IMG/VR virus record: IMGVR_UViG_3300009425_000078
Coordinates: 1 to 26,681 of that record
DNA length: 26,681 nucleotides
Direction: 5' to 3' (one strand)
From: a virus
The position numbers and the translations under genes are program-made. Below the pieces are notes generated by a model, which made no database searches, was not told the DNA's origin, and saw only the letters and a program-made list of their open reading frames with translations. Shown piece after piece: positions 1 through 16,930 of this stretch. The stretch's first letter is position 1, and each line of letters begins with the position of its first letter.

Positions 1-3000
1 ACAATCACATTCACCTTCTGGAATACCAGGTCCTGTTACGCCATTGGGTGCTATTCCAGTACACACACCACATACGTCTGCATAGACACAAGAATCGTCA
101 TCTGCAAGTGCATTTGAGTCATAGTTACATGCAGCAGCCTCCATACATCCAGAACAGGAATTGTTATAGCCTGCACAGACACCATCAGGATTTAGCGCGG
201 ACTCACATAAGTCAAATGAATAGTCACCTGCTACTACCCCCGCATTATCCATAACACCCTCCACCATTGGGCAACCGCAAAGTGTATACGTTTGAGTATC
301 TAGTATATACTCTGTACCCTCAAAATATGATCCATTAGGACAGGTTTCACAAAGATCAATTGGGAATTCATCGTCACATCCGCAATAACCTGCAGCATTC
401 TCAAAGAAGGTACCACCGCAAACTTCACACTCATCTACAATATTACCCGCACAATCACAAGCATCTACTGCAAGCCCATTATTTTCGTTTCCAAGTATAT
501 TTATAGATATGTTATCTATCTGAACTTCAAATAAGACTTGACCACTAAAATGAATTTTTGGGTCTTGGATACCAACTGCCGTAAAGTGATGTACAAATGA
601 TCCAGTTCCTGTTAATGATGTTACACTTGGCACCTCTGCTTGACCTGTACCGTAGTTTCCTCTTGATATTCGAGAAACAGTAGGAGTACCACTAAGCCAT
701 TTCCAGTCAAATGTTAAGACGTAGCTAACACCCTCTACAAGACTTGGGTTAACAGGTAAGCTTAATGCTGGATAATTAGCTGCCTGTGCGCTCGTTGACA
801 GTACTGTACACTCTATTATAAAATCTTTTTCTCCCATAATAGGACTAACATCATTTATATGAGTACCAGCAGTAGCACCTCCACCTGTAGTAAGCGATAT
901 ATTTGATCCGTTAGAATTTGTCGTCTGATCATTAAAGTTTTCATAGTATATTTCTTGTCCGCCACCACCACAAACTAAACAATCGTCTAAAACGTGTCCG
1001 TCACAATCACAATCACCTTCTGGGATACCTGATCCTCCACAAGTTCCACACTCACCACAGACAGTAGCTACGCCTGTATCTCCTAAACAACCGCACTCTT
1101 GGTCATAGGTCGTAGAAGTTCCATCGCAGACTACATGTGATATGTCACCACCGCAATTTCCGCAGTCGTCAATTTGAGTACCATCACAAGTACCATCTGT
1201 ACCTAAACATTCACCAGCAGGAATACCTGAGCCTCCACAAACTCCACAATCGTCAATGGTTGCAGTTTCTAGGCAGTCACAAAAACCAGTAGGGAATTCA
1301 TCACATCCACAATCGAGTGTAGCTCCCGGCCCATCACATATATTACACGCGTCCCATACTTCAGTTAAATCATCACAGTTGCAATAAGTTCCTGCTACTC
1401 CGCTTGTGACGGTTGTAACAGGACCATCACAAACATTACATACATCATACACCCCACCAGTACCATCATCAATACCAGTTGCTGGGTCTATACCATCACA
1501 ATCACAATCACCATTGGTTGTTAATACAGGATAAGTTCCAGCAGTAAAAAAATTATCTCCTCCACAAACACCACACTGATCATTGTAAATACACGAACCA
1601 GCACCGTCAGTATCAATTGTGTGTAAAGGATCATAATTACAAGCCAGGTCGTCTGTACATCCAATACAGTCATTAGTGCCGTTTGGCTGACCACAATCGT
1701 CTTCACAAGAAATATCATCGTTACAAGCGCCACAAACTCCGTCACATGAAGTGCCGTCTCCGTTTGATACTCCACAACAGTCAGCACAAGAAGAGCCGTC
1801 TCCGTTTGGAACGCCACAAGCGTCTTCACAAGAAGTGTTATCGTTACACGCACCACAAGCTCCGTCACATGTTGAACCGTCTCCGTTTGGAACGTTACAA
1901 CAGTCAGCGCACGTAGTGTACTCACACGTTGCGTCAGATAGAGTAGCATTAGGATCAAAGTTACATGCAGTAGTATCCATACATCCAGTACAAGTAGCAT
2001 TACCTCCATTACATTCAGAGGGGTCACAGGAATCAAATACTTGGCCAGAACCACACTCGCCATTACAACCCATTATCAGTACGTCACAACCATTAAGACA
2101 CTCATTTGCTGCTAGCACTTGGTTACATTCACCACAATCATCCGTATAATATGTAGTAATAACTCCTGTTACAGAATCTGGCTCAGAACAACCACAAGAA
2201 TCACCAGGCGTCGTGTTATCATCTTCAGAAAAATATCCCTCGTTTCGTGGTAAACAAGCCCCACACTCGTCAATAATGTTTCCATCACAATCACAGACGG
2301 ACATCGTTGTTTGTTCTGACGGAGCTATAACCACAATTGGATTACCGCACCCACATGCATAAAGTGTTATTCCGTCAAGGCCTTCAGTACAGTCACAGTA
2401 GTTTCCTAACTCAGTACCAAAAAAGACGGGTCCACCACAAACCCCACAATCGTCCAGATCAGTTGAATTACAACCACATCCTTCCTCTCCACCAATAGTA
2501 AAACCACCTGAAGGATCTATTCCATTAGTATATATTGCATCTCCGTCACAAGTACCGCAAACATCCCATTCAAGTGGTCCTCCACATTGGCCGTCACAGT
2601 CATCTACTAAACAATCACCTTCATCCTCTATTGTGTACGCATTACCAGGCTCATAGTTACAAGCAGTGCTTTGCATACAACCGACACAATCATTATTACC
2701 ACCACATACTCCACATCGATCATCTACATTTCCAAAACAATCACAGAATAGAGCTTTTTCTGTACCATCTGCTAGTAATTTTTTTGGTATACCTTGCCCA
2801 AAACAATCACCACACTCATCGACTCCAAGACCGTCACAAACACCACACTCATCAACTATATTACCATCACAATCACATGATGCTGGGAAAGTTGCAGGTA
2901 TATTTATATATGTACAACAACTGTCATTTGCACATCCCACTCTAGTATTCGGGTCATAGTTACATGCAGTAGTATCATGACATCCAATGCACTCATAAGT

Positions 3001-4005
3001 ACAATCCCCATTATCATATTGGGCTAAAGTATTAAAGTTACATGCATCAGGGTTAGTACAACCGCCAATACTTCCACAATCATTAGCTATATTTGCAAAA
3101 CACTCCTCCTGTGTTAAATAAGCGCTTATTCCTCCTGCCGTCGCAGGTACACACCCGGATAAACCTCCTTTCCCCACAACACACTGCCAGTAATACTCAC
3201 ATAACCCATTATCACATGTTGCATCTAGGTTATAATTTATAGCTTCTGGGTTAGTACAACCGTCCAAACAGTACGTACAGCATGAATCCCATCCATCAGC
3301 TCCTACCCAATCATCTGCAGTTACATCTGCCCCTAAACAATCATATTGTTGCCCTGTTGCATAATTTAAAGCATCCGAGTCAGTACAACCTGTCTCTATA
3401 CACGACCCGTCACTTATTTCTGAATCAGGGTCGTAGTTAAACATTAGATAACCTCCCGCACATGGATATGGACAATCCTCACCGTTGTTGTCGTTTCCAT
3501 TTACATCAGGAAAGTCTCCTGGTGTAGCATTTATACAACCATATGTGGTATCATCTTTAACGTTAACAACGACCATAATAGCCTTAGTACAAGTATTAGT
3601 AGTGACGCCGTTAAGTGCAAAAGTCTGTGTTACTTCACAGGTGTATATACCAGGACCGATGAGCTCTAAGTCCTGTAATTGATACCCTGTTGTCCACTGA
3701 TAAGTATGAGTAAAAGTTACTCCCTCTGGCAAAGGTGATACACCATATGCTGTTATATTTATTTCACCATCATTACTAGTACTGGTCGTGGGCTGTGTTA
3801 CCTCAGACGTTACATTAAACTGGTTACAATACGTACAAAGTTCATTTTGATTATCAGCTTCAGGATTATAGTTGTCTGCACCTTCAACCGTGCAACCACC
3901 TATCATATTTCCTGACGGAATGACTACAGCATCATCCTCACAATTTGTTAATGGCTTACCGCAAGGCTCCTCCGGACACTCCTCGTTTTTATTATCTATT
4001 TGCAT
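1..4005 (-). CDS. Giant cysteine-rich mosaic protein, probable receptor-binding fibre or adhesin (C-terminal end beyond window)
   Basis: The minus-strand frame is open from ATG at 4005-4003 to the left edge: 1335 codons, no stop, about 150 cysteines by hand count. Residues about 70-150 hold an SprB-like domain (NDGEINITAYG, YQWTTG, GPGIYTCEVTQ), a family named after the gliding adhesin of Flavobacterium johnsoniae. The rest is mainly two cysteine repeats. One is GC-D--ACNYDP, for example GCMDTTACNFDP and GCTDDLACNYDP, in about ten copies. The other is CDCDGN--DECGVCGG, often with SGIPEGDCDC. Residues about 1015-1170 (490-960) form a cysteine-poor, beta-rich insert resembling a jelly-roll carbohydrate-binding module. 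The start overlaps the upstream gene by 10 nt; no Shine-Dalgarno is seen. Such repeats are known from secreted Bacteroidota proteins. A role in host adsorption is inferred from composition and from its position at the end of the structural genes. Confidence is high for the gene, moderate for the role. Confidence 0.85.
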   Translation of the reverse strand, partial: MQIDNKNEECPEEPCGKPLTNCEDDAVVIPSGNMIGGCTVEGADNYNPEADNQNELCTYCNQFNVTSEVTQPTTSTSNDGEINITAYGVSPLPEGVTFTHTYQWTTGYQLQDLELIGPGIYTCEVTQTFALNGVTTNTCTKAIMVVVNVKDDTTYGCINATPGDFPDVNGNDNNGEDCPYPCAGGYLMFNYDPDSEISDGSCIETGCTDSDALNYATGQQYDCLGADVTADDWVGADGWDSCCTYCLDGCTNPEAINYNLDATCDNGLCEYYWQCVVGKGGLSGCVPATAGGISAYLTQEECFANIANDCGSIGGCTNPDACNFNTLAQYDNGDCTYECIGCHDTTACNYDPNTRVGCANDSCCTYINIPATFPASCDCDGNIVDECGVCDGLGVDECGDCFGQGIPKKLLADGTEKALFCDCFGNVDDRCGVCGGNNDCVGCMQSTACNYEPGNAYTIEDEGDCLVDDCDGQCGGPLEWDVCGTCDGDAIYTNGIDPSGGFTIGGEEGCGCNSTDLDDCGVCGGPVFFGTELGNYCDCTEGLDGITLYACGCGNPIVVIAPSEQTTMSVCDCDGNIIDECGACLPRNEGYFSEDDNTTPGDSCGCSEPDSVTGVITTYYTDDCGECNQVLAANECLNGCDVLIMGCNGECGSGQVFDSCDPSECNGGNATCTGCMDTTACNFDPNATLSDATCEYTTCADCCNVPNGDGSTCDGACGACNDNTSCEDACGVPNGDGSSCADCCGVSNGDGTSCDGVCGACNDDISCEDDCGQPNGTNDCIGCTDDLACNYDPLHTIDTDGAGSCIYNDQCGVCGGDNFFTAGTYPVLTTNGDCDCDGIDPATGIDDGTGGVYDVCNVCDGPVTTVTSGVAGTYCNCDDLTEVWDACNICDGPGATLDCGCDEFPTGFCDCLETATIDDCGVCGGSGIPAGECLGTDGTCDGTQIDDCGNCGGDISHVVCDGTSTTYDQECGCLGDTGVATVCGECGTCGGSGIPEGDCDCDGHVLDDCLVCGGGGQEIYYENFNDQTTNSNGSNISLTTGGGATAGTHINDVSPIMGEKDFIIECTVLSTSAQAANYPALSLPVNPSLVEGVSYVLTFDWKWLSGTPTVSRISRGNYGTGQAEVPSVTSLTGTGSFVHHFTAVGIQDPKIHFSGQVLFEVQIDNISINILGNENNGLAVDACDCAGNIVDECEVCGGTFFENAAGYCGCDDEFPIDLCETCPNGSYFEGTEYILDTQTYTLCGCPMVEGVMDNAGVVAGDYSFDLCESALNPDGVCAGYNNSCSGCMEAAACNYDSNALADDDSCVYADVCGVCTGIAPNGVTGPGIPEGECDC
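1691..1913 (-). repeat. Near-perfect 123-nt tandem duplication inside the giant cysteine-rich gene
   Basis: On the plus strand, units begin at 1691 (ccacaatcgtcttcacaaga) and 1814 (ccacaagcgtcttcacaaga), a period of 123 nt or 41 codons. The encoded units share the order NGDGS-CDG-CGACND--SCED-CG--NG. A shorter subrepeat, NGDG(S/T)(S/T)C, occurs three times. The duplication keeps frame and the cysteine spacing. This fits expansion by unequal recombination or slippage, and the unit differences (for example TCDGACGACNDNTSC against SCDGVCGACNDDISC) show it is not an assembly artefact of identical copies. Confidence 0.85.
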
Positions 4006-4568
4006 GCTAGAACTATAGTTATACGTTGTTGATCACAGCCTCCGGTTGTGGTAAGACATTCACACAATTGTAAATTGTGATTTGTATCGATTGATGCTGC
4101 TGCTATGCAGAAGCGTAATTTACCCATATCATTGGTGAGTCCCTGAGAAACACCATTTAATATAATATCATAATTTGGAACAGGTAGTCCTGTATCTGTA
4201 ACAGCTTGAATTAAAATACATTCATCATCGTTACATTTAAGTCCAACATTGTTATCTACTGTAGCTTGTTCACCACATTTTCCATCTTGACCACACATCT
4301 TGTTAACCCAAGAAGGAGCGTTTATATCCTCATCTACTGTAGTATTATCAGCAGGTGCATATAACACAGTGGTAATAGACTTGATTGTATATGTCAATAC
4401 CTTATTATCCTGCCAATCACATAGACTCTTTTTAGCAATGTTGTCAGCTAAATCAGAACCGCAGCAATTACCCATACCATACTTCTCTGCCCGAAATGCT
4501 TTATACACATCATCAGCGAAGTTTAGTTCGATCTCTAATTTTCTTAATGTGTAATCTTGTTGCTCCAT
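3996..4568 (-). CDS. Cysteine-rich phage protein with a C-terminal beta-sandwich-like region
   Basis: A 190-residue protein of unknown function. The N-terminal part (EIELNFADDVYKAFRAEKYG) looks helical and is followed by cysteine groups such as GNCCGSD, KMCGQDGKCGEQ and KCNDDECIL. Residues about 120-190 include GLPVPNYDIILNGVSQGLTN followed by GKLRFCI, a pattern like small transthyretin or carboxypeptidase-regulatory-type beta sandwiches; this is a resemblance only. No signal peptide or membrane segment is evident. It starts 3 nt after the stop of the 38-residue gene and its last 10 nt overlap the start of the giant cysteine-rich gene, so the three are probably co-translated. Its position suggests a fibre-attachment or fibre-assembly role, which is inference. 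Confidence 0.8.
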   Translation of the reverse strand: MEQQDYTLRKLEIELNFADDVYKAFRAEKYGMGNCCGSDLADNIAKKSLCDWQDNKVLTYTIKSITTVLYAPADNTTVDEDINAPSWVNKMCGQDGKCGEQATVDNNVGLKCNDDECILIQAVTDTGLPVPNYDIILNGVSQGLTNDMGKLRFCIAAASIDTNHNLQLCECLTTTGGCDQQRITIVLACK

Positions 4569-4571
4569 TTT

Positions 4572-4688
4572 TTACTTCTTGTCGGCAGCTGCCTTACATG
4601 TTTTATGAACGAAATTCCCATTCTTGTCTTTGGTTTTTTGACAACCACAACTGAAAGCTTTTCCACAGTGTGTGCATATTGCAGCCAT
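4572..4688 (-). CDS. 38-residue zinc-ribbon-like microprotein
   Basis: A small ORF that falls below common length cut-offs. ATG is at 4688-4686 and the stop at 4574-4572. It begins MAAICTHCGKAFSCGCQKTK and continues with an HKTC motif near the C-terminus. The two CxxC/CxC-type pairs (CTHC and CGC) plus the HKTC residues could bind one zinc. It sits 11 nt after the stop of the 180-residue gene and 3 nt before the next start, with no other reading of this gap. The tight fit and the nonrandom Cys/His layout make it likely real. Its function is unknown; a structural or assembly cofactor for the neighbouring cysteine-rich virion genes is inference. Confidence 0.75.
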   Translation of the reverse strand: MAAICTHCGKAFSCGCQKTKDKNGNFVHKTCKAAADKK

Positions 4689-4699
4689 AATTTTTTTAA

Positions 4700-5242
4700 T
4701 TAACAGGTTTTACAAGTGATTTTTTCTAATTTCCTTTTGGCAAAATCATAGAGCTCCATCCCCTGTGTAGGGTTAGATGCATATTCTACTTTAGCTTTTG
4801 CTGCGTCTATATATGTTCTTATAATTGACATTTGATCCATAAGCTCCTTTTTATCAGAAGAAGGTTCACACGGACTAACATCTATAGTTCCCATTTTTTC
4901 AAAGTACATATGCATAAGATGCGTAGTTCTCAGAATATTATATTCAACAAAAACTTTCTCATTAGGTGATACGCTATATCTAACTACATATACACCATCT
5001 GGTAGATGTGCTCTGTCTTCATTACAAGCCGTAGTTTGTAAGTTAAGAGAACATGCCGTTATTTGAAGATCAAAACCCGGACCCGTCTCTACTAATGCAG
5101 AGCTAAATCCAGGAGCGGTTATAAGAAGTTCAGCACAGTCAACCTCCAGATTAGGAGCGTATTGACTAGTGTCTTTTAAATGAAGAGTTTCACAATTTGA
5201 CACTAATGAAGAATCAAGACTTAGTATATGTTTTGCTGCCAT
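4700..5242 (-). CDS. Conserved phage structural-region protein, 180 residues, cysteine-containing
   Basis: Unknown function. The N-terminal half (residues 1-100) reads as beta strands with regularly spaced cysteines (SNCETLHL, EVDCAELLIT, QITACSLNLQTTACNED), followed by DGVYVVRYSVSPNEKVFVEY, a typical beta-sandwich strand pair. The C-terminal half is helical (KKELMDQMSIIRTYIDAAKA, then GMELYDFAKRKLEKITC) and ends in CKTC. The two-domain layout suits a small virion neck or tail-attachment protein, but I cannot name a family. It is the first gene after the terminator at 5314-5345 and opens the cysteine-rich group, so it probably has its own promoter in the 5243-5313 interval, where the minus strand holds only an imperfect TATATTTTG match to the -7 consensus. 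Confidence 0.8.
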   Translation of the reverse strand: MAAKHILSLDSSLVSNCETLHLKDTSQYAPNLEVDCAELLITAPGFSSALVETGPGFDLQITACSLNLQTTACNEDRAHLPDGVYVVRYSVSPNEKVFVEYNILRTTHLMHMYFEKMGTIDVSPCEPSSDKKELMDQMSIIRTYIDAAKAKVEYASNPTQGMELYDFAKRKLEKITCKTC

Positions 5243-5313
5243 TACAATAGAAGTTATTTAAGGCACACCGGTACCTAATAATAATATACAAAATATATTA
5301 GAAATATAAAATA

Positions 5314-5345
5314 AAAAGAGGTGAGAACTTAATCCCACCTCTTTT
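5314..5345 (-). terminator. Strong intrinsic terminator after the 410-residue structural gene
   Basis: A perfect 10-bp stem: aaaagaggtg (5314-5323) pairs with cacctctttt (5336-5345) around a 12-nt loop. Read on the minus strand, the hairpin is followed by TATTTTATATT. It lies 25 nt past the stop at 5370 and separates the structural block from the cysteine-rich group. Confidence 0.85.
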
Positions 5346-5369
5346 CGAGATTTATATATTATTACTCTA

Positions 5370-6602
5370 CTAGGCCACTAATGGAGTAGTTATTGTAAGA
5401 CCAGTTAAAGTTGCAATCTGATCCCATAACGTGTCCATTTTAGCAATTTCACCTGTTTCGGTAGTATCCGTCGCATCTGTATAACGCTTAACTGCTACAG
5501 CAACAATGTACTGATCGTTATCAAAAACACCTGTAGGGTTGTTAAAACGAGGTACGCTGTGTTGTAGGTAGTATATTGAATACGGATCCGCTACTGTAAT
5601 AGCAGCCACAAGCTTCGCACCTCCTTCAATTTCTCTGAAGCGGTTAGAATCTTTATTACCTTGGCTAAATCCTCCATCTTGTCTGTAACGACCGTCTTGG
5701 ATAAGATCTCTTAGTACGCATTCTCCAGTAACAGTTGGTGCTGTTCTTACAGCAGATACACCTGTTGCAGTAAGAAGTGGCGCTTCAATTACAGCAGTAG
5801 CAGCATCTGTAATATCTGTATATACATCAACTCCTGCTTCTATAACACTTGATCCACAAGCATCACCATCGTCATCAATAGCACTTACAGTTAACGTCAA
5901 AGGCTCTGTATTATAAGCGTCTCTTGTGTCAAATGAATTTGCATTGAACGTTGTTGCTAAGTAATTAACAGTAATAGACAAGTGTGCCTCTTGTGCAGGT
6001 AACAAGTTAGTAGCATCAGTTCCATCAGCAGCAGCCGCTTCTGTTACAGTAGCACTAACGAACTTACTCATAATAGGATCACCATTAATAGCATCTTTCC
6101 AAGCAGTAAGTACCTCAAGTCCTGTAAGTAAACCAGTACCAGAAGCTCCACATCCTGTAGCATCAGCAATAAAGTATTCATTACGGTTTAAAGATCGCAA
6201 GACCTCAGAACCCTTTAAGTCAATACGGATTTGAGGGTGATCAGTAGCAGCAAAACCAGAAACAGCAGGAAGACCAAGTTTAACTACTGGATCAGCAGAA
6301 GCTAATGTTCCATCAACTTTCCACATAGCGTTTACGTAGTTTTTCTTGATAATCTTAGACTTGATAGATTCAGAATACCCACCGTGAAGAGGGTTACCTC
6401 CTAGTGTATCAACTTCATTAAGGTTTCCTTGTACGATAAGGAACTCATCTGGACAAGTACCTGAAGAAACAACAGATACATAACTTGATGCATCAACTAA
6501 AGCAACTTCTCCTGCTTCAAGCTCTGCTGTTGTTGTAGCAGCTGCTTGCTCTACAGTTTTCGCCAAGAACATTTTCTTATAGGCGTGATTAAAATAACTC
6601 AT
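5370..6602 (-). CDS. Probable abundant virion structural protein (tail or neck), 410 residues
   Basis: The protein begins MSYFNHAYKKMFLAKTVEQA, is rich in Ala, Thr and Asp, and has the alternating short-strand character of phage tail-tube or capsid-decoration proteins (for example LTLTVSAIDDDGDACGSSVI). The C-terminal third contains QDGRYRQDGGFSQGNKDSNR and AVAVKRYTDATDTTETGEI. I do not recognise a named domain. It is a single-gene unit: a 145-nt leader upstream and a strong terminator downstream. The leader carries the best Shine-Dalgarno in the window (AGGAGG at 6620-6615, 12 nt before the ATG) and a TATAAT-like box, unlike the neighbours. Independent, strong expression fits an abundant structural protein. 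An overlapping upstream ATG at 6612-6610 is out of frame. Function is inferred from context. Confidence 0.8.
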   Translation of the reverse strand: MSYFNHAYKKMFLAKTVEQAAATTTAELEAGEVALVDASSYVSVVSSGTCPDEFLIVQGNLNEVDTLGGNPLHGGYSESIKSKIIKKNYVNAMWKVDGTLASADPVVKLGLPAVSGFAATDHPQIRIDLKGSEVLRSLNRNEYFIADATGCGASGTGLLTGLEVLTAWKDAINGDPIMSKFVSATVTEAAAADGTDATNLLPAQEAHLSITVNYLATTFNANSFDTRDAYNTEPLTLTVSAIDDDGDACGSSVIEAGVDVYTDITDAATAVIEAPLLTATGVSAVRTAPTVTGECVLRDLIQDGRYRQDGGFSQGNKDSNRFREIEGGAKLVAAITVADPYSIYYLQHSVPRFNNPTGVFDNDQYIVAVAVKRYTDATDTTETGEIAKMDTLWDQIATLTGLTITTPLVA

Positions 6603-6747
6603 TTTTTTTCATTGCCTCCTACTTTACTTAGAGGACTTTTTAATTTACAAAAAGAATGGGTTTATTATACCAGAATGAAAGTACCCAAACCTGAACTCTC
6701 ATCCTTACCTTATTAATATAAGAATTAATTATGTAATAACCAATTCA
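6603..6747 (-). promoter_or_regulatory. 145-nt leader with AGGAGG and possible -10 box
   Basis: The minus strand contains AGGAGG at 6620-6615 upstream of the ATG at 6602-6600, and further upstream GGTATAATAA (around 6670), a good -10-like box. No exact TAnnTTTG is present. A short out-of-frame ATG lies between the AGGAGG and the annotated start. The promoter is suggested by the box and by the transcriptional isolation of the gene. Confidence 0.4.
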
Positions 6748-7449
6748 TTAATTATTTTTTTCTGCTGACTGTGAGCCCCTAGCATACTGATTAACAGAGT
6801 CTATGTCACCTGCTATAATAGCTACGGCCTCATCTATAATCAATTCAACAACATCGTCCTTAAACTCACATTCAACACCAACGTCTGACTCTATTGTTGT
6901 ATAGGGATCAAGACAAGATACTATCTCCATTCTTACAGGTTGTCTGTAATATGTTAGTGTAGGTTCTACAACTGTAAAATCTTTTCTATATACTTTGACT
7001 GTATTAGCAGCCATAGTGCAGAATGTTTCGCTCCATTCAAAATCAGGTCTTTTAAGAGGGTCTCTCATAATAATATCTACGTTAGCTTCTTCTGCTAGAT
7101 AGACCGTCATTGCTCGTGCTTCTGTACAACAATCTGATGTAGCATTAACACTAACTCTTTTAAACTCCATATAATTATCAGGGAAATTTGTTCCTTCAAA
7201 ATAATCATCAGAAACATCCCCTGTTAGTACAACAGATTCAAGCAAGGGTTGGAGGTCATCTACACGTCGTTTAGATGCCTCATCCCCCTCTTTATACATA
7301 TTGTTACCATGAAGCTGTCTTCTACACCACTCTACCTGCGCTTTATTAAAAGCCTCAACTATCTGCCAACATTCAATGTTGTCATAATCGTTGCTGGCTA
7401 ATTTATTTAACCTTTGCTTAAATTTAATCTGCAGTGTGGTGTTGTTCAT
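6748..7449 (-). CDS. Putative head-tail connector or neck protein, 233 residues
   Basis: The helical N-terminus (LQIKFKQRLNKLASNDYDNI, then WQIVEAFNKAQVEWCRRQL) is followed by a beta-rich middle with KRPDFEWSETF, TVKVYRKDF and TLTYYRQPVRM, and a helical acidic end (DDVVELIIDEAVAIIAGDID). Helical ends flanking a beta domain, with the motif order 'residues predicted from primary data, then Y-R-P', are common in head-completion and adaptor proteins of phages. I base the call on this layout and on its place after the capsid gene. Cysteines are fairly frequent (DCCTEA, VGVECEF). It starts 8 nt before the stop-proximal region of the previous gene ends, with a 7-nt gap, so the two are co-transcribed. 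Confidence 0.6.
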   Translation of the reverse strand: MNNTTLQIKFKQRLNKLASNDYDNIECWQIVEAFNKAQVEWCRRQLHGNNMYKEGDEASKRRVDDLQPLLESVVLTGDVSDDYFEGTNFPDNYMEFKRVSVNATSDCCTEARAMTVYLAEEANVDIIMRDPLKRPDFEWSETFCTMAANTVKVYRKDFTVVEPTLTYYRQPVRMEIVSCLDPYTTIESDVGVECEFKDDVVELIIDEAVAIIAGDIDSVNQYARGSQSAEKNN

Positions 7450-7456
7450 GACTTAT

Positions 7457-8473
7457 TTAATTTTCCCAGAGCTCTTCCATGTCAGCCATATAGCGGACAA
7501 GTGTTTCATCATTAAGTGGGTTCTTTAGAAATTCAAGTACTTCAGAAGGTCTTTTACCTAATTTAGAACCTGAATATTTATCATAAATAAAACCATCAGA
7601 CTTACTAGACATTAAACCGTGTGTAGTAGCGTCTTTAATCATGGCTCTTATTTTAAGATCTTCCATTGTAGAGTTAGATACTTCAATAAAAGTTTCTGCA
7701 GCGCGTGTCTTAGATGACTCAACACCTTCCCCATTGATATACATATCCATACTCTCATACAAGACATCTATAGGAGTTCCTTTTGTATACTGAGTGCTGT
7801 TAGCATCTGTAACTTTAGTTACATAAAGTAACTTAGTTGTGTCAGTATCATATAGATTTTGAAGAGAAGCTAGTGCTCTGTTTCTAATCTTAGAAAGCTT
7901 AGTACGAGTTCCTGTTGTTTCTTTAACTTTGTCTAAGTAAAACTTACTTCCCTTGGCCTTTGCCTCTTCAAGGCTTTTTGCAACAATAGAAAAACCACCT
8001 GCTTCAATCGCATACATCTTAATTAGATCATAAGGATCAAGAGCAGGATCTAAAAACATAGCGTCATTTCCACATTTTAAAGACATTTTTTCCCAAAACT
8101 TGTGGTTGTCAGGGCGAAGTATCTCCACCTTATTCCAAAAGTCTTTATCCTTTACATCAATAACATTAGCACCCAACTCTTGTTCAAGTTGAGCAACTAC
8201 TGTTCTAATTTCTTTGATTTTTTCTTTCTTTGCATTTCCCTTAAGTATTTTTACTTCAGGTGCAAATTCATTCAGACCAGTTATATATCTACTGATGCCG
8301 TTTCTTTCTAAACAAGCAAGGCTTTCATGGTGCCATACACCTTCAAACAATGTCATGTTATAATTCTCTAGACCCATATTTTCTTTACCTGAGTCAAAAT
8401 AAGGACGGATAGCAATTGTTTGCGCCTTTCCTTGTTGGTACTTTTCTATAATAGTTAAATTTAAATCTTCCAT
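7457..8473 (-). CDS. Phage structural-region protein of unknown function, 338 residues
   Basis: A mixed, mostly helical, soluble protein without recognisable domain. Notable segments are YQQGKAQTIAIRPYFDSGKE near the N-terminus, EKIKEIRTVVAQLEQELGAN (helical, about residues 85-105), DPALDPYDLIKMYAIEAGGF in the centre, and GLMSSKSDGFIYDKYSGSKL followed by PSEVLEFLKNPLNDETLVRY near the end. It has few cysteines and no transmembrane stretch. It is the first gene after the terminator downstream of the capsid gene and is followed after 7 nt by the connector-like gene. Position suggests a capsid-associated or portal-vertex protein, but nothing in the sequence proves this. Confidence 0.75.
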   Translation of the reverse strand: MEDLNLTIIEKYQQGKAQTIAIRPYFDSGKENMGLENYNMTLFEGVWHHESLACLERNGISRYITGLNEFAPEVKILKGNAKKEKIKEIRTVVAQLEQELGANVIDVKDKDFWNKVEILRPDNHKFWEKMSLKCGNDAMFLDPALDPYDLIKMYAIEAGGFSIVAKSLEEAKAKGSKFYLDKVKETTGTRTKLSKIRNRALASLQNLYDTDTTKLLYVTKVTDANSTQYTKGTPIDVLYESMDMYINGEGVESSKTRAAETFIEVSNSTMEDLKIRAMIKDATTHGLMSSKSDGFIYDKYSGSKLGKRPSEVLEFLKNPLNDETLVRYMADMEELWEN

Positions 8474-8554: not shown

Positions 8555-10183
8555 TTAAAATGAACCTCCTGTTATAGGGTTCTTCATAACAATCTTAAGC
8601 ACTTTAGTTGGGTCCTTTACCCAAACTGCAGGCATAGTCTGCGTCATCATAACTCTGTACCCGTTAAAGTGTCCAGAAGATGCGAAACCTTGAGTTCTTC
8701 CCATGTAGTCCATTGTACCATTCTGGTAGAACCACTTCAACTGATTATCCCAAGAAAGCTTAAGTAAGTTGATGTTATCACTACCTCCTTCAGTTATATC
8801 AAAAATGATAAAGCTGTAAGAAGAAAGAGGACGTCCATCAATAAGCGGATTCTCGATGTCATTAGTATGAAGGTTGTCAAACGCTGGGTTTAGAACAAAC
8901 TTAACATTAGCTAAGAAAGGAATAACGAAGCTTGTGTAAGCAAATCCAAATCCTAGATCCATACCTTTTCCGGTAATTGCACCAACATCAGCAGCTTGCG
9001 TAACCATACCGGTATTAGCACTACCAGCTTCTGCAGCAATTGCAGCATTAACTAGTTGCATACCACCGATACCTGTTTGTACAACAAGCTCGCGCTTAGG
9101 ATCTGGTCCTTCAAATTCAACTTTACCTGCATAGAAGTTGTATAGCTCATTCTTGAACATATCAAGACTGAAACCAGACTTGTTGTACACTCGTTTGAAT
9201 GAGTTATCTAACTGCTTCCATAGACCTACTGATAATCTTAGATCATCTGGTCCATCTTGCTTGATTCGTCCACCGTGTCCCCACATTAAGTAAGTCTCGA
9301 TGTCATTAGCAATCTTAGATAAGTGAGCTGCTTCCATAGACGTTAAGAACGTTCTAGAAAGTGATCCATTATCAAATGCCTTTTTAACATAGTCCTTACC
9401 CATTGCAGAAGCGATGTCCTCAACAGAAGAAAGAGAAGGGTCAACAGACTTATCAAAGTTTCTCCAAATCTCAGTTACTGGTACAGTACCATCAGCGTTC
9501 ATTCCACCCTTGAGCATTAAGTCTGCTCTAGAAGAAATAGAATAGTGAACGTGTGCTTCTGCTCCACCAACAAAGTTGTAGAACTCTCTGAAACCTGCTC
9601 CAGTAGAGATATCAGAGAAACGCTCTCCGTACTCACCTCTTGCAGAACCTTTTCTGAAGAACTTAGTTCCAGCAGCAAGGTACTTTACAGGAAGTCCAGC
9701 AGATGAGTCGTTATTAACGAGTTCAACTGTGTATACCCATGCATCACCTACTTGAAGGATATCATCAGCAGTAATGTAAAGCTCCATACCATTATACTTA
9801 TCATAAGTAATGATATCTCCATGACCAAACTCTCTTTTAGATAGTTTAATCTGGAAAGGAACTCCGTCTGCTCCTAAAGAAACAGGATCAGCGTCCGTAG
9901 CATTAGTACCTAAAGAGACAGGTAATTCTTGAGCTACAGGTGTTTGCCACTTGTATTCTCCTCTAGCATTGTCCACCATAATTGTGTTCTTACCTCCGAA
10001 AGATGCCATTTGGTATAAAGGCATCTCTACCTTCTGCGTCATCGCCCATAGATCCACAGGACCCATATCGGTTGGTTCAGCATTACCTAACATGTTTGTC
10101 AAGTGATAAGAATCAATATGTGAACTAGCTTTGTAGTTTGTGTCCCTCAGAAAGAGACCATTGTTTAAAACTGGTGTTGCCAT
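8555..10183 (-). CDS. Probable major capsid protein, 542 residues
   Basis: The protein starts MATPVLNNGLFLRDTNYKAS. It contains FFRKGSARGEYGERFSDIST (about residues 175-194) followed by HVHYSISSRADLMLKGGMNA, both of the kind seen in large capsid proteins of Bacteroidota phages, then helical segments (NDIETYLMWGHGGRIKQDGP) and a long C-terminal beta-rich region (NPAFDNLHTNDIENPLIDGR, YRVMMTQTMPAVWVKDPTKV). Evidence for the role is mainly its size, its low cysteine content, its place directly after portal and scaffold-like genes, and the strong terminator that follows. No cleaved N-terminal delta domain or adjacent protease was recognised. The start has the A-rich, SD-less context (GTGAAAAAATG) usual for Bacteroidota. 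Confidence 0.75.
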   Translation of the reverse strand: MATPVLNNGLFLRDTNYKASSHIDSYHLTNMLGNAEPTDMGPVDLWAMTQKVEMPLYQMASFGGKNTIMVDNARGEYKWQTPVAQELPVSLGTNATDADPVSLGADGVPFQIKLSKREFGHGDIITYDKYNGMELYITADDILQVGDAWVYTVELVNNDSSAGLPVKYLAAGTKFFRKGSARGEYGERFSDISTGAGFREFYNFVGGAEAHVHYSISSRADLMLKGGMNADGTVPVTEIWRNFDKSVDPSLSSVEDIASAMGKDYVKKAFDNGSLSRTFLTSMEAAHLSKIANDIETYLMWGHGGRIKQDGPDDLRLSVGLWKQLDNSFKRVYNKSGFSLDMFKNELYNFYAGKVEFEGPDPKRELVVQTGIGGMQLVNAAIAAEAGSANTGMVTQAADVGAITGKGMDLGFGFAYTSFVIPFLANVKFVLNPAFDNLHTNDIENPLIDGRPLSSYSFIIFDITEGGSDNINLLKLSWDNQLKWFYQNGTMDYMGRTQGFASSGHFNGYRVMMTQTMPAVWVKDPTKVLKIVMKNPITGGSF

Positions 10184-11628: not shown

Positions 11629-14388
11629 CTAAGACTTCTTCTTCTTCTTTTCTTTCGTGTCTTTAACGTCATATTTGTTTTTATTTTCACGAGCTATCTG
11701 CAGATTCTTGTTAGCAATGTCACGCTGTGTAGCTAACTTTTCTTTCTCAAGTGAAAGCTTCGTTTTACTGTCCGCATTATTAACTGTTGCCTGTTCTCGC
11801 TTGAAGTTCATCTGCTCTCTATATTGATCCCTCTGACGGATGTCTTTCATAGCATCCTGAAAATCACTTTCTTTATTTTCATTTATGTCAACCTGCGCTC
11901 CGTAACCTGCAGACCTGATCTCAGCAACTGTAATATCTTTTTGTCTTTCAGCTTCCTGCTGTGACATTTCAAACTGACGTTGAGCTTCCTTTTCTGCTTT
12001 CTGTGCCTCAAGCTGCTGCTGTTGCATTTCCTGCTGTTGCTGCATCTCTTGTTGCTTTTGTGCAGTCTGCTTAGTTTCAGCATCTTTAAGTATATCAGAC
12101 ACCTCAGCAATAGAATCAGATTTAAGTACATTACCTAGATCATATATAGAAGCTCCTGTAGTATTATTTTGTAAAGCCATCTGCTTTAACTGCTCTAATG
12201 TAGCTCTGTGATTTGTTTTAGTTGTAGCAAACACATTAAAATCTCGTAGGAGAAGTTCCTTACCATTAATAGTAAAGTTAACTTTCTCTGCTTCAGTAGT
12301 CATATACGTAAGACGCACTGAAGGATTTGTACTATGGTAATGCTGAGCAAGGTCCGTTCTCATTTGGTGCACTCTAGGCATCAAGTGATCTGCGTGTTGT
12401 GTAAAGTACATCTCCGTCTGAGCGTAAGACTGATTCATAGCTTGTGTTACACCTGTTGCAGTCTGTTGCGCTATAGGCGCTCCTAGTCTTTGAGGATTAA
12501 CTCCTATCGCATCAAATGCTTGTTGCTTAAAGTGATTAGCCAATTGAACCCTAGACATTAACCTATTTGTCTGCTCTAAGTTAAGAGTTTGGTAGTGGTT
12601 GAAGTTTACAGCATTTTCTGTATTAGTGATAGATGTGTCTAATGGCATCATACCAAAGTCCTTCATTGCTACGTAAGCCTTCTCTAAATTATTCTTTCCC
12701 CAGTCTTCTCCCATGGAGTGTCTAGGTAAAGCGTTTTGGTCAAACATAATTACAGTACCTAACTCGTCTACAAGTATGTCAGCAATTTGATTGTTAACCA
12801 TATTATAACCTACTTGATAAGGTTTCATTAAGTCAACTAAAGATGTAGATCGTGTGTTACGGTCAGAAAATACGCGACCCTCTACAGGTAGCTTACATCC
12901 ATATAAAGAGTCAGTCCCTTTAAACTGATATTGTACTCGTCCTGGCTTATTTCTATTTATCCCTATATAGATAGGATTAACCTCATGGTCTTCAGTTCTC
13001 CACGCAGCAGGAGCATTAGGTCCAATTTTAACCCCACCCCACACGTCATTTATCCACAACCAATCTATATGCTCTCCCTCAATAAGATTATCCTTTGTTT
13101 TTTGCTTAAACAAGTGAGTGTTGTAAATAGGCTTTTCTGTAACCTTATACGTATCATCAACTATTGCTTGAATAATTTCACCCTCTGGTGTTATTCTAAT
13201 AAGATGACCCACCATGCGCTGCGTCTTCCAGTAAGTTGTTGTCACACGCATCATGTCAGAATCTCCCCAATCAGAGATGTCACCACCTTCACTAAGTAGC
13301 CACTGCACCACGTCACCTTCCATGCTAGGATTATGTCCGTGGTTTGACATGAGACGTCTATAATCTAATCCAGGAGCTTCTGTATTCCATTTATGTGATT
13401 TAGACGCATCATAATAAGATCCGTCATTCTGCATACCATTGAGCAGGTATTTAGAGTTTGTTGCAGGATGCAGGTTTTGCATGCTTCTTAACTGGGGCTC
13501 ATCCATCAAGTAACCATACTTATCTATTACATCAGCTACGGTCATCATATCACATTTCCCTACAAAGTTAGAATCTGAAATGTATCTTGAATCTGGTGAT
13601 TTTTGATAGAAGGTTAATACAGGATTCCATAACTCAACGTCATAGTCATCCTCATTCATTTTAAAGTGCCAGAATTCTCTGTCACATATAAGCATATCTT
13701 TAAACGCCCTTTCCTCTAACTCAGCCATTTTAAAACGCTCCTCATCCACATTTAATTGATGTGATGCCCATTCTTCAACTAGGCTTCTATAGTCTTTAGA
13801 GAAGAAGTCCTCTATTTCAGGAAGGGTTTTTAATTTCTCGGGCGATATCTCTTGTTTAAACTCTTCTGATTCAGGGTCAGCTCCCTGTTTAACCATCTCC
13901 ATGGTTAATTTAGCACGTGCATCATTCAACAAGTTCTCTTCAATAAGAGCTCTCTTTGATTCTAACATCTCATTATATGATGAGTCATCAACAGCCCTAA
14001 ATTGTACTTTATTATATCTTTTAGAGAACTCTCCAACTAAAACATTTATCACATTGGGTATAATAGGATAGAATTTTAACTCTAATGCCGTCTCATCCTC
14101 CTTTGTTAACACGTCCATAAAATCAGCGTATTCATTATCCTCTTCTATGATGTAGTCTGTTTTATCTATAATACCTTTTGCAAGTTTATAGTTCTTAAGT
14201 AAACGTCGCCCGTTTTTCTTAAGTTGATCCATTCCTCTTAATTCAAGCCAATCTAAATTCCAGGCAGCCCAATCGTCATCCTTTTTCTTTGAAGAGATGA
14301 ATTGTAAGGGCTGCGTTAAAGATGCATTGACAGGAGACTTGTCAACTTTAGCCCCCTTCTTGAGATCCATTGCGTTATATACCTTCAT
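11629..14388 (-). CDS. Portal protein, 919 residues, with long C-terminal coiled coil
   Basis: Portal rings form the DNA entry vertex and dock the terminase. The call rests on position directly after the terminase, a length suitable for large P22-type or crAss-like portals, and the region LVGEFSKRYNKVQFRAVD (about residues 117-134), a wing/stem-type segment typical of this family. Later stretches such as GRVFSDRNTRSTSLVDLMKP and GYNMVNNQIADILVDELGTV, then QQTATGVTQAMNQSYAQTEM, fit the portal crown and helical barrel. From about residue 770 the protein becomes a long glutamine- and charge-rich coiled coil (QEMQQQQEMQQQQLEAQKAE) ending in a polylysine run. The start is 1 nt after the stop of a 27-codon micro-ORF. 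Confidence 0.85.
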   Translation of the reverse strand: MKVYNAMDLKKGAKVDKSPVNASLTQPLQFISSKKKDDDWAAWNLDWLELRGMDQLKKNGRRLLKNYKLAKGIIDKTDYIIEEDNEYADFMDVLTKEDETALELKFYPIIPNVINVLVGEFSKRYNKVQFRAVDDSSYNEMLESKRALIEENLLNDARAKLTMEMVKQGADPESEEFKQEISPEKLKTLPEIEDFFSKDYRSLVEEWASHQLNVDEERFKMAELEERAFKDMLICDREFWHFKMNEDDYDVELWNPVLTFYQKSPDSRYISDSNFVGKCDMMTVADVIDKYGYLMDEPQLRSMQNLHPATNSKYLLNGMQNDGSYYDASKSHKWNTEAPGLDYRRLMSNHGHNPSMEGDVVQWLLSEGGDISDWGDSDMMRVTTTYWKTQRMVGHLIRITPEGEIIQAIVDDTYKVTEKPIYNTHLFKQKTKDNLIEGEHIDWLWINDVWGGVKIGPNAPAAWRTEDHEVNPIYIGINRNKPGRVQYQFKGTDSLYGCKLPVEGRVFSDRNTRSTSLVDLMKPYQVGYNMVNNQIADILVDELGTVIMFDQNALPRHSMGEDWGKNNLEKAYVAMKDFGMMPLDTSITNTENAVNFNHYQTLNLEQTNRLMSRVQLANHFKQQAFDAIGVNPQRLGAPIAQQTATGVTQAMNQSYAQTEMYFTQHADHLMPRVHQMRTDLAQHYHSTNPSVRLTYMTTEAEKVNFTINGKELLLRDFNVFATTKTNHRATLEQLKQMALQNNTTGASIYDLGNVLKSDSIAEVSDILKDAETKQTAQKQQEMQQQQEMQQQQLEAQKAEKEAQRQFEMSQQEAERQKDITVAEIRSAGYGAQVDINENKESDFQDAMKDIRQRDQYREQMNFKREQATVNNADSKTKLSLEKEKLATQRDIANKNLQIARENKNKYDVKDTKEKKKKKS

Positions 14389-14389
14389 G

Positions 14390-14473
14390 TTAGTCTGATG
14401 TTCCGTAGTCTAAATAACTATATGATATATCGGTTATGTCAGGGTCCGAGCACGTCATTACATAATCTATCAT
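14390..14473 (-). CDS. 27-residue micro-ORF between terminase and portal
   Basis: ATG at 14473-14471 shares its A with the terminase stop (TAATG). The stop at 14392-14390 lies 1 nt before the portal ATG. The peptide begins MIDYVMTCSDPDITDISYSY and ends in an LDYGTSD segment. It is acidic and tyrosine-rich, with no known motif. Two reasons to believe it: it fills the gap exactly, and the same TAATG coupling is used at 17448 and 16930 in this operon. Its function is unknown; a packaging accessory peptide is only a guess. Confidence 0.55.
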   Translation of the reverse strand: MIDYVMTCSDPDITDISYSYLDYGTSD

Positions 14474-16677
14474 TATCCTATATTTTTAAATGGGTTCCTT
14501 TTATTACGGCCAGTATGCTTAGATTTACCCTTACCAATATTCCTAAAAGGACTCGTATTTAATTTACGCCTTTTTTGGGGTTTATCCAAGACTTCCAATG
14601 ATTTATCCCTTTCCCTCCTCTTAACGTATCCCCTGTTCGCATGTTGCATATTAGCAAACGCAACTAATGCTGCAAACGCCACTAACCTATCTACGTTAAG
14701 TCCTGGGAAGTATTGTAACATTTCAGTGACTAACATAGGGTCAGGTATTCTTTCTACACCATACGTTTTTTTATAGACTACACCATCTTCACCTGTCTCC
14801 TCATGTGTTACTTCTCTGATAAACTCGATAGCATAAGAAATTAGATGACTTTTAAATAGCGTGCCTGTATTCTTCCATCCATATTCCTGGAATACACTTC
14901 TATTTGACCCTAGCTCTTTTAGGAATACTATCTGACTTTTGGGCACTAAATACTTTTGTTTTCTTTCTCCTATCATATACTGTATAAACAAAGAGATGTT
15001 GTTCTCAACAATAGTCCAGGCGTTATACCACTCTATAATGAGTTTTAATTGCTCATGCGTTTTATTAATGTCATCATATCTACCACACCAAGAAGCTACA
15101 ATTTTGTCACCCTCTATAAAAGTTTCTAAACCTGAAGGTGTTTCTTTAGTTACCTCTACAGGGTTTTTATAGACAAAGATGCTACACAGAGAGTCTGATG
15201 TAGTAGTCTTTCCTTCTGATACAGGGTCGACAGAAGCATAGTAAGTTCCAAAATCAGGCTTCTTGATAGGACGCTCCCAAACCTTTAATACCCCCCTTTT
15301 ATCCTCTTGCTTTTTGTTTACAGGGAATTCTGTAATGGGTATCCTTCTTGAGGGGTTAGCTTTTATCTTACCTTCTGTCTCTTCCAGGTCTAATAGTTCA
15401 AAGGAATATTCCTTATCCTCTATACGCTTCATTTGCTTTGCTAAGAAGCCTTGAGGGAATATAGATTCTTTCCTATAAGCAAAAGCCTCTGCTATGTCAA
15501 TAGGCTTCTGTGAAATTCTAAGTTGATATTGTTCAGCCTCTAAATCTTTCTTCCACACCTCACGCTCCTTCTTAATTGAGACTAACGCTTCCTCAACTAG
15601 AGAATTACCAAACTGATCTAGGAAAGGGGGCATAGACCATTGCTCAGGAATAAATAAACCTGCTATCCCCAAAGTACCCTTATCATCCATAAGGTCTGTT
15701 TCAACACCTAGAATACCATTAGCTTCAGGATTAAGGATCATTCTCTTTAAAGGTTTGCAATGATCTAAATCTCCTACAGAACCTGCCGCTATAAACTGAC
15801 CAGTAGTCATCATTCCTGAGGACATTGCAGGACGTAAGTACTCATAGGTCTTATCCATTTTTGGTGCAATCCCTGCTTCCTCATGAAAAAAGAAACTACA
15901 AGGTCCACCTACACCAGCAGTAGCATTTTTCTCGAATGATGCTCCCTGTATCTTAGATCGTAATCCCTTGAACGTCTTGCGGTTATTGATCCTTACTTCA
16001 ATCTTTTGTTCCCATAACAAAACCTTTCCTGGGTTACTTGGTCTATACCATGCCGTGTGCTCATTAAGAAAGGCTGCATACTCATCTAGAAACTTCCAAG
16101 AACCTTTATCATTTACGTAATCTTTCAGTGAAGCACCTATCTTACATACTGCTCCTTCTTCAAACCAATATGCATTAAGTAACTTGGCCATGTGGAAATA
16201 AGATGAGGCTATCTGTCTCTTCTTTAAAATAGCTACATGTTTGTAGTTTATTTCAGCCATTATCTCATAGAGAGCCATGTGATATTGAGCATCCCTAACC
16301 TTAGCAAAACCATATTTCTTCTCTTCCTTGTCATAAATAGGTAAGAAGTTTAACCACATGTAGTAGTCACGTGTTAGGTACCAGGTTCCACCTTTATTTT
16401 TATATATGACACCTTCTCTGCATTTATTTTTTTCACTTTCCCAATACTTAATAAAATCTTTACTACGTATAGGTTTATCACAGTAAAACCCCTGAGTATT
16501 AAAAGCTCTTGCTTCAGAGTTAAAAATAAAAGCAGTTTCGTCAAAGTCATAGTGCCCTGGTACTTTAAATACAGAGTCTATAAATACACGAAAATCCTCT
16601 AACGTCTTGAATTCTGTTTCTTCCCAGACTCCTTCATTTAGCGTAGGGACTGTTTTATATAGCGACGATGACTGCAA
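14473..16677 (-). CDS. terL: Terminase large subunit (TerL), 734 residues
   Basis: The packaging motor ATPase and nuclease. After an N-terminal extension (KNKCREGVIYKNKGGTWYLT, about residues 84-103) comes a Walker A-like segment KKRQIASSYF (152-161) and a Walker B-like segment SFFFHEEAG (about 261-269) with the catalytic Glu pair. The nuclease domain shows YASVDPVSEG (Asp484), VENN (Glu558) and a late Asp in LNVDRLVAFAAL, together the three acidic positions expected of the RNase H-like fold. The C-terminus is basic (KRRERDKSLEVLDKPQKRRK). The Walker A lacks the canonical GKT/GKS, as is common in phage terminases. The start overlaps the GroES-like gene by 23 nt. No small terminase subunit was recognised nearby. 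Confidence 0.93.
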   Translation of the reverse strand: MQSSSLYKTVPTLNEGVWEETEFKTLEDFRVFIDSVFKVPGHYDFDETAFIFNSEARAFNTQGFYCDKPIRSKDFIKYWESEKNKCREGVIYKNKGGTWYLTRDYYMWLNFLPIYDKEEKKYGFAKVRDAQYHMALYEIMAEINYKHVAILKKRQIASSYFHMAKLLNAYWFEEGAVCKIGASLKDYVNDKGSWKFLDEYAAFLNEHTAWYRPSNPGKVLLWEQKIEVRINNRKTFKGLRSKIQGASFEKNATAGVGGPCSFFFHEEAGIAPKMDKTYEYLRPAMSSGMMTTGQFIAAGSVGDLDHCKPLKRMILNPEANGILGVETDLMDDKGTLGIAGLFIPEQWSMPPFLDQFGNSLVEEALVSIKKEREVWKKDLEAEQYQLRISQKPIDIAEAFAYRKESIFPQGFLAKQMKRIEDKEYSFELLDLEETEGKIKANPSRRIPITEFPVNKKQEDKRGVLKVWERPIKKPDFGTYYASVDPVSEGKTTTSDSLCSIFVYKNPVEVTKETPSGLETFIEGDKIVASWCGRYDDINKTHEQLKLIIEWYNAWTIVENNISLFIQYMIGERKQKYLVPKSQIVFLKELGSNRSVFQEYGWKNTGTLFKSHLISYAIEFIREVTHEETGEDGVVYKKTYGVERIPDPMLVTEMLQYFPGLNVDRLVAFAALVAFANMQHANRGYVKRRERDKSLEVLDKPQKRRKLNTSPFRNIGKGKSKHTGRNKRNPFKNIG

Positions 16678-16930
16678 GGATGTCTTCTTTTCTTAGAAGA
16701 AGATGCTGCGCACCCTCATGTTCCATTTCTACAGGGCTAGCAAAATCGCTGTAGCGGATGATATCCCCGTCAACAACTTCAGTAACATTCTTCCCTACGG
16801 CTATAACAAGGGCTTTTCTTTCTTTTACCTGTTGTGCTTCAGGTATGAATATAGCGGACGCTCCATATGTGCTCTTAGCTTCTACTTGTTTAACTAGAAG
16901 CCTATCGCCTGTGGGTATTATTTTTTCCAT
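16655..16930 (-). CDS. GroES-like co-chaperonin (Cpn10), 91 residues
   Basis: The sequence follows the Cpn10 plan: IIPTGDRLLVKQVE at the N-terminus, a mobile-loop region (AKSTYGASAIFIPEAQQ, about residues 18-34) whose hydrophobic AIFI would contact GroEL, then ALVIAVGKNV, a VVDGDIIRYSDFAS segment and the C-terminal LLLRKEDILAVI. At 91 residues it is near the bacterial GroES length (about 95). No GroEL gene is in the window, so it probably works with host GroEL, as T4 gp31 and similar phage proteins do, to fold a phage protein such as the capsid subunit; that target is inference. It is coupled by TAATG to the upstream gene and overlaps terL by 23 nt. Confidence 0.88.
   Translation of the reverse strand: MEKIIPTGDRLLVKQVEAKSTYGASAIFIPEAQQVKERKALVIAVGKNVTEVVDGDIIRYSDFASPVEMEHEGAQHLLLRKEDILAVIVAI

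Follow-up and report, generated by a model that had tools for sequence, protein, structure and literature searches.

A giant cysteine-rich modular protein at the variable locus of a crAss-like phage, probably part of a virion appendage

The window analysed here, 26,681 bases long, is the entire IMG/VR record IMGVR_UViG_3300009425_000078, a linear fragment of a crAss-like (Crassvirales) podovirus. At one end it encodes P0001, a giant cysteine-rich protein whose 3′ end lies beyond the contig. P0001 probably represents the proximal and middle portions of a giant modular appendage of the virion. The most likely identity of this appendage is a tail fibre or adhesin that docks close to the tail barrel. 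The habitat of the phage is probably marine, and its hosts are likely to be aquatic Flavobacteriales-like bacteria.

The frame of P0001 starts with an ATG at 4005 and runs off the window edge at base 1 without a stop, as had been claimed in an earlier note made from the letters of the sequence. The remaining five frames contain 44-190 stops over the same region, and at the stop density observed there the chance of an open frame of this length is ~1e-39. Cysteine accounts for 148 residues (11.1%), close to the "about 150" of the earlier note, and acidic residues (D+E) outnumber basic ones (K+R) by 219 to 16, giving a net charge of about -203. The other window proteins tested contain at most 6.3% cysteine, and the capsid, scaffold-position and long internal proteins contain 0%. 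Both module types named in that note, GC-D--ACNYDP and DECGVCGG, could be located: the pattern GC..ACN[YF] occurs in five copies (residues 341, 442, 674, 782 and 1286) and [DE].CG.C in eleven (residues 385, 396, 429, 481, 518, 579, 622, 809, 918, 946 and 1310), with A.NY variants at residues 37, 206 and 249. The cysteine map has two gaps, one at ~60-120, inside a stretch of ~60-155 that appears Ig-like by eye, and the other at ~1018-1175. What the earlier note described as a cysteine-rich fibre is giant, phage-encoded, rich in cysteine and situated in a virion-structural operon; its richness in cysteine is not uniform, residues 1018-1175 being free of it. The protein, its segments and the open reading frame (ORF) that precedes it are:

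1..4005, minus strand: P0001, giant cysteine-rich protein of at least 1,335 aa (open frame, 148 Cys, 0 stops)
3172..3987, minus strand: P0001 residues 7-278, phage-lineage segment with homology to internal parts of crAss-like giants (phmmer 5e-44 to L355 1507-1771; also L019, L349, L014, L348, L117)
1006..2985, minus strand: P0001 residues 341-1000, array of GC-D..ACNYDP and DECGVCGG modules (pattern positions; matches to the Flavobacteriales protein L291)
481..954, minus strand: P0001 residues 1018-1175, cysteine-free domain (from sequence; jelly-roll-like by eye)
1..468, minus strand: P0001 residues 1180-1335, second cysteine-rich array, running off the window end (frame and pattern positions)
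3996..4568, minus strand: 190-aa ORF (6.3% Cys), an RYG..CC..KK.LCDWQ module plus a further domain (residues 8-94 and 110-187 match the giants L355 and L014)

Searches of IMG/VR with P0001, its N-terminal 295 residues and its cysteine-free domain found no relatives, and tblastn of P0001 sequences against INPHARED gave no match; homology surfaced only when relatives had been collected through the capsid gene and compared locally. Residues 7-278 align to positions 1507-1771 of L355 and L019, to 2275-2539 of L349 and to L348 and L014 from residue 545. In L355, the 190-aa ORF matches residues 983-1072 and 1429-1506, stopping one residue before the P0001-like segment. Judged from these alignments, the 190-aa ORF and P0001 are a single polypeptide in relatives, and the gene therefore probably starts functionally one ORF earlier than the ATG of P0001. 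Where the 190-aa gene stands alone, its first ~60 residues (RYG, CC, K-LCDW) are retained and other domains take the place of the remainder. As in fibres and receptor-binding proteins, a conserved domain is thus combined with differing distal parts and with a movable P0001-like segment, and P0001 is encoded among tail structural genes; the 190-aa domain would serve as the anchor. The cysteine-free domain at residues 1018-1175, for which no Pfam, phage or IMG/VR relative was found, is a candidate binding head. An insert of ~360 aa (FYYDATSLG...GERWLDWATS..TG.FNN), possibly VWA-like, splits the 190-aa domain in the relatives L355 (712-8142), L014 (15680-21028) and L007 (15501-16151).

The genes around P0001 follow a conserved order in the relatives: capsid, 338 aa, ring 3/4, 410 aa, 180 aa, the variable locus, a cysteine-rich 180-aa FN3-like protein, exonuclease, 173 aa, ring 2, ring 1 and muzzle. 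In 22 of 26 distinct complete intervals there is a protein with no less than 3% cysteine and a length of 400 aa or more; two or more GC..A.NY repeats are present in 8 of the 26, and a DECGVCGG array in none. The complete giants vary widely in length, up to 3,247 aa (in a first set of 20 regions), and mostly contain 3-6% cysteine; the P0001-like segment begins at residue 1507, 2275, 545 or 690 depending on the relative. Variable content between conserved flanks, together with a segment that changes position, is what would be expected of a shuffled, modular receptor-binding locus. Large cysteine-rich proteins at this locus are a general feature of the clade, with P0001 extreme only in its DECGVCGG array and its 11% cysteine. 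Outside the 26-interval sample, the crAss-like contig L116, in which capsid and portal were confirmed, encodes both repeat types within a 535-aa ORF. One of the tail-operon genes that separate the fibre locus from ring 2, the exonuclease gene, encodes a DNA repair exonuclease (phrog_704; L346 7934-9115).

That P0001 belongs to the virion is suggested by its neighbours, which in the window are:

4700..5242, minus strand: 180-aa virion structural protein, Ig/FN3-like sandwich plus helices (homologue of phi4:1 gp56, a virion protein by tandem mass spectrometry (MS/MS); model pLDDT 87)
5370..6602, minus strand: 410-aa protein conserved in the clade, placed as phi4:1 gp61 (virion)
6748..7449, minus strand: crassvirus tail ring protein 3/4 (phrog_29507 6e-13; PF25710 weak)
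8555..10183, minus strand: crassvirus major capsid protein (PF23898 3.1e-34)
11629..14388, minus strand: portal protein (phrog_6547 4e-96)
14473..16677, minus strand: terminase large subunit, TerL (phrog_6681 1e-65)

The crass-type portal, TerL and ring 3/4 in the window are complemented by ring 2, ring 1 and muzzle in the relative L346. The nearest deposited phages by portal are Leptolyngbya phage Lbo-JY46 (34%), csAssE-Sib (27%) and Cellulophaga phages phi17:2 and phi4:1 (26%). At least 598 IMG/VR stretches encode relatives of the capsid protein, the longest such contigs reaching 114-123 kb against the 26.7 kb of the window, and the 180-aa gene has at least 568 relatives. The 180-aa protein gives a nearly full-length profile match to phi4:1 gp56 (3e-7), and the top viral match of its AlphaFold model is the phi17:2 structural protein R9ZWW9 (TM 0.81, E 2e-10). 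In phi4:1, 16 genes separate ring 3/4 from ring 2, and MS/MS data led to the annotation of 13 of them as virion proteins. The interval gp45-gp62 of phi4:1 and phi17:2 resembles the window in its related portal and ring genes, its MS/MS virion proteins and its homologous 180-aa gene (gp56), but is divided into several separate genes and has no cysteine-rich giant. In PhicrAss001, rings gp34/35, hubs gp38/39 and ring 2 gp40 are numbered such that the fibre-docking hubs fall in the equivalent interval, and cryo-EM has revealed disulfides that stabilize the tail hubs and rings (PMC10172136); the likeness to the window (gp38, gp39, gp22) thus includes both an interval with a fibre-docking hub and disulfides in hub and rings, whereas the fold search with the 180-aa protein missed the hub and cysteine-rich repeats are unmentioned for PhicrAss001 (PMC10172136). 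The earlier note had held such a disulfide or metal load to be unusual for a phage virion protein, which stands for the DECGVCGG array and the 11% cysteine, both exceptional, but not for cysteine-richness in general, given the giants in 22 of 26 intervals and the virion disulfides of PhicrAss001 (PMC10172136). The 180-aa protein itself is not claimed as a tail hub, its PDB fold search having given generic Ig/FN3 matches only, and neither the 180-aa nor the 410-aa family matched anything in PDB profile searches.

On balance, the appendage is more likely to sit at the tail than at the head. It is rather unlikely that P0001 instead decorates the capsid, as a modular cysteine-rich head fibre providing weak adhesion to surfaces or particles, comparable to crassvirus head fibres of the Ig-like and phi29-gp8.5-like kinds. 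The capsid of PhicrAss001 does bear two fibres whose presumed role is to bind external surfaces (PMC10172136), FN3-type pieces are present in the cysteine-rich proteins of the relatives, and the 410- and 180-aa neighbours are structural proteins with no assigned place in the virion. However, the head-fibre genes gp21 and gp29 of PhicrAss001 lie outside the interval from ring 3/4 to ring 2, which includes the hubs gp38/gp39 (PMC10172136), and in two contractile-tailed contigs, L139 and L123, the same repeats come after the baseplate-wedge genes.

Several observations weigh against a tail appendage. The distal tip and stop codon of P0001 lie beyond the contig, for which no overlapping viral contig was found in IMG/VR. 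P0001 gave no match in Pfam (E up to 0.1), PHROG or NCBIfam and none of significance in the PDB, and hence no fibre, lectin, receptor-binding or depolymerase family. The AlphaFold prediction for part of the cysteine array (residues 331-480) was poor (pLDDT 46) and was not interpreted. In the window, the frame is broken between the 190-aa ORF and P0001, which share 10 bases (3996-4005) in different frames; the break would reflect either a genuine gene fission, with translation of the two ORFs coupled, or a minor assembly error (indel). The solved crAss001 hub was not among the top PDB fold matches of the 180-aa model, leaving attachment to tail and to capsid indistinguishable on that evidence.

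How such an appendage might be built can be outlined. The starts of P0001 and the 190-aa ORF (MQIDNKNEE... and MEQQDYTLRK...) lack a hydrophobic leader by eye, and the appendage, made with the tail genes, would be built in the cytoplasm. The upstream modules, including the 190-aa RYG/CC/LCDWQ domain, may link it to the virion, as their conservation and fusion suggest. The stalk would consist of short modules of the GC..A.NY..DDGSC and DECGVCGG types, strung together and each closed by paired cysteines and acidic loops. In the cytoplasm it would be reduced and flexible; after lysis, oxidized and possibly loaded with calcium, it would become a rigid, protease-resistant rod. Contact with the host surface would be made by cysteine-free domains, residues 1018-1175 among them, and perhaps also by the repeats. 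The resemblance of the repeats to those on the hosts' own secreted proteins suggests that host-type modules were captured and shuffled into the appendage, which may adhere to the matrix or glycans bound by host adhesins; receptor binding and mimicry of host adhesins, both already raised in the earlier note, are plausible on these grounds.

The distribution of cysteines within the repeats is consistent with disulfide-closed modules. Repeats with the extra cysteine of the ACN motif have another cysteine nearby much more often than those without it, both across 352 viral repeats (odds ratio 3.9, Fisher p 9e-8) and across 601 host repeats (odds ratio 12.8, p 3e-31); the test takes no account of the kinship of many of these repeats and counts each as independent, a further point on the debit side. 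The result favours added cysteine pairs over a fixed four-cysteine metal site, and it says nothing on calcium. It bears directly on an otherwise similar but unlikely version of the fibre reading, in which the Cys/Asp clusters bind metals such as zinc or iron in the cytoplasm and disulfides are not needed. The C-x-C...C-x-x-C spacing of the DECGVCGG module and the strongly negative charge would suit metal binding; against this, 116 of 354 viral repeats have the two framing cysteines alone, too few for a Cys4 site, and the extra cysteines tend to come together. A search for Erv/Alr sulfhydryl oxidases found no match in 14 relatives, but is uninformative, control genomes being equally silent, and the thioredoxin-fold matches in 7 of the 14 are unspecific. 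If the modules of the appendage are disulfide-closed, the question arises of how at least 148 cysteines per chain avoid mispairing in a reducing cell, and the borrowing of host adhesive modules for phage attachment becomes testable.

The earlier note recognized the modules as those of secreted Bacteroidota proteins, and this is borne out. The best match of residues 331-480 is L291 (CALKFF010000032.1; E 7e-11), a protein of 1,520 aa from a Flavobacteriales metagenome-assembled genome (MAG), which has the same GCTD..ACNYDP, DECGVCGG and CDCDGN modules and 11.6% cysteine. It differs from P0001 in ending in a type IX secretion system (T9SS) sorting domain and in being GC-rich (58%), whereas the codon usage of P0001 is that of the phage and no export signal is visible in it. 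Among the matches listed in a GTDB pattern scan, the great majority of carriers are Bacteroidota (Flavobacteriales, Crocinitomicaceae, Saprospiraceae and others); a small remainder comprises Neomarinimicrobiota, further FCB-group MAGs and one archaeal MAG. In the paper library searched, no paper contained ACNYDP, and none dealt with phage and DECGVCGG together.

This kinship raises the improbable alternative that P0001 is a moron, produced during infection, exported and displayed on the host surface rather than packaged. The repeats are indeed those of secreted Bacteroidota proteins, one of them with a T9SS sorting domain, and the IMG/VR repeat proteins L195, L222 and L197 have an apparent leader peptide. 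However, no signal peptide is visible at either start; no Por_Secre_tail (T9SS sorting) domain was matched in the complete relatives scanned, the C terminus of P0001 itself lying outside the window; and the gene sits inside a conserved tail operon and is fused in relatives to that operon's own 190-aa domain.

Codon usage separates P0001 from its host counterpart: all four segments correlate with the phage core genes (r 0.73-0.91), whereas a host gene with the same repeats correlates poorly with both the phage core (r 0.33) and P0001 (r 0.32), which makes a chimera of reads unlikely. An assembly that joined a phage contig to a host adhesin gene is hardly credible, for although the left 3 kb is closest to host-type repeats, ends at the contig edge and has repeats common in Flavobacteriales MAGs, residues 7-278 continue a phage-specific segment, the frame runs unbroken into the repeats with the codon usage of the phage core, and L116 holds both repeat types within one ORF; the host-derived chimera that the earlier note named as its refutation is thus disfavoured.

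The repeats also occur in a second, contractile-tailed lineage. In L139 (58 kb) and L123 (15.5 kb), baseplate-wedge genes (phrog_219) are followed shortly, in the usual place of fibre genes, by cysteine-rich giants: in L139, one of 1,514 aa (8.4% Cys) beside one of 5,456 aa (6.7% Cys) (loci L368-L370), and in L123 one of 1,877 aa (11.7% Cys) that runs off the contig. Repeats in fibre-position genes hence span unrelated tail types. The 109 repeat-bearing IMG/VR stretches are a raw number and not a count of fibres, as L151, L195, L197 and L222 look secreted, with leader peptides. Tentatively, and with more doubt than assent, we suggest that these proteins form an undescribed class of appendage: disulfide-armoured rods with hundreds of cysteines in host-type adhesin modules, reduced in the cytoplasm and oxidized outside. 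Two kinds of phage of aquatic Bacteroidota, the short-tailed crAss-like and the contractile-tailed, would have acquired such rods independently of each other, and the rods would work by joining or mimicking the T9SS adhesive matrix of the hosts.

A precedent exists within Crassvirales. The BACON-domain tandem-repeat protein of crAssphage is tail-associated, has a suggested host-binding role and arose by horizontal transfer and duplication; as with P0001, a host-type Bacteroidetes domain is arranged in tandem (PMC6949934). P0001 differs in having another, small cysteine-rich repeat, no match to BACON or any other Pfam family (E up to 0.1) and relatives outside the gut. By analogy, it would be a new variant of a strategy already known from the crAssphage BACON repeats (PMC6949934). 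The CGVCGG-like motif is also shared, superficially, with the cysteine-rich region of animal ADAMTS proteins, but without significant homology (best PDB E 0.23). The analysis pinpoints a likely receptor-binding locus for an abundant crAss-like clade that lacks a close isolate, and connects this locus with a family of repeats found in surface proteins of Flavobacteriales.

Some minor observations may be added. Leptolyngbya phage Lbo-JY46 (PP438436.1, L344) keeps the ring, 180-aa and muzzle genes, and its database host, a cyanobacterium, is worth checking. A GroES-like co-chaperonin (Cpn10, 7e-15) is encoded at window positions 16655-16930, adjoining the terminase. Proteins of ~650 aa with a leader peptide, a HEVGHFLGLYH metalloprotease motif and the same cysteine repeats are encoded in L195 (4631-6574), L222 (1964-3919) and L197 (1619-3571), and may be either phage-borne secreted proteases or host contamination. 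In L164, a 44-kb viral contig, a reverse-strand ORF at ~3717-7583 encodes a protein with 13% cysteine, 18 repeats and a LysM-like N terminus.

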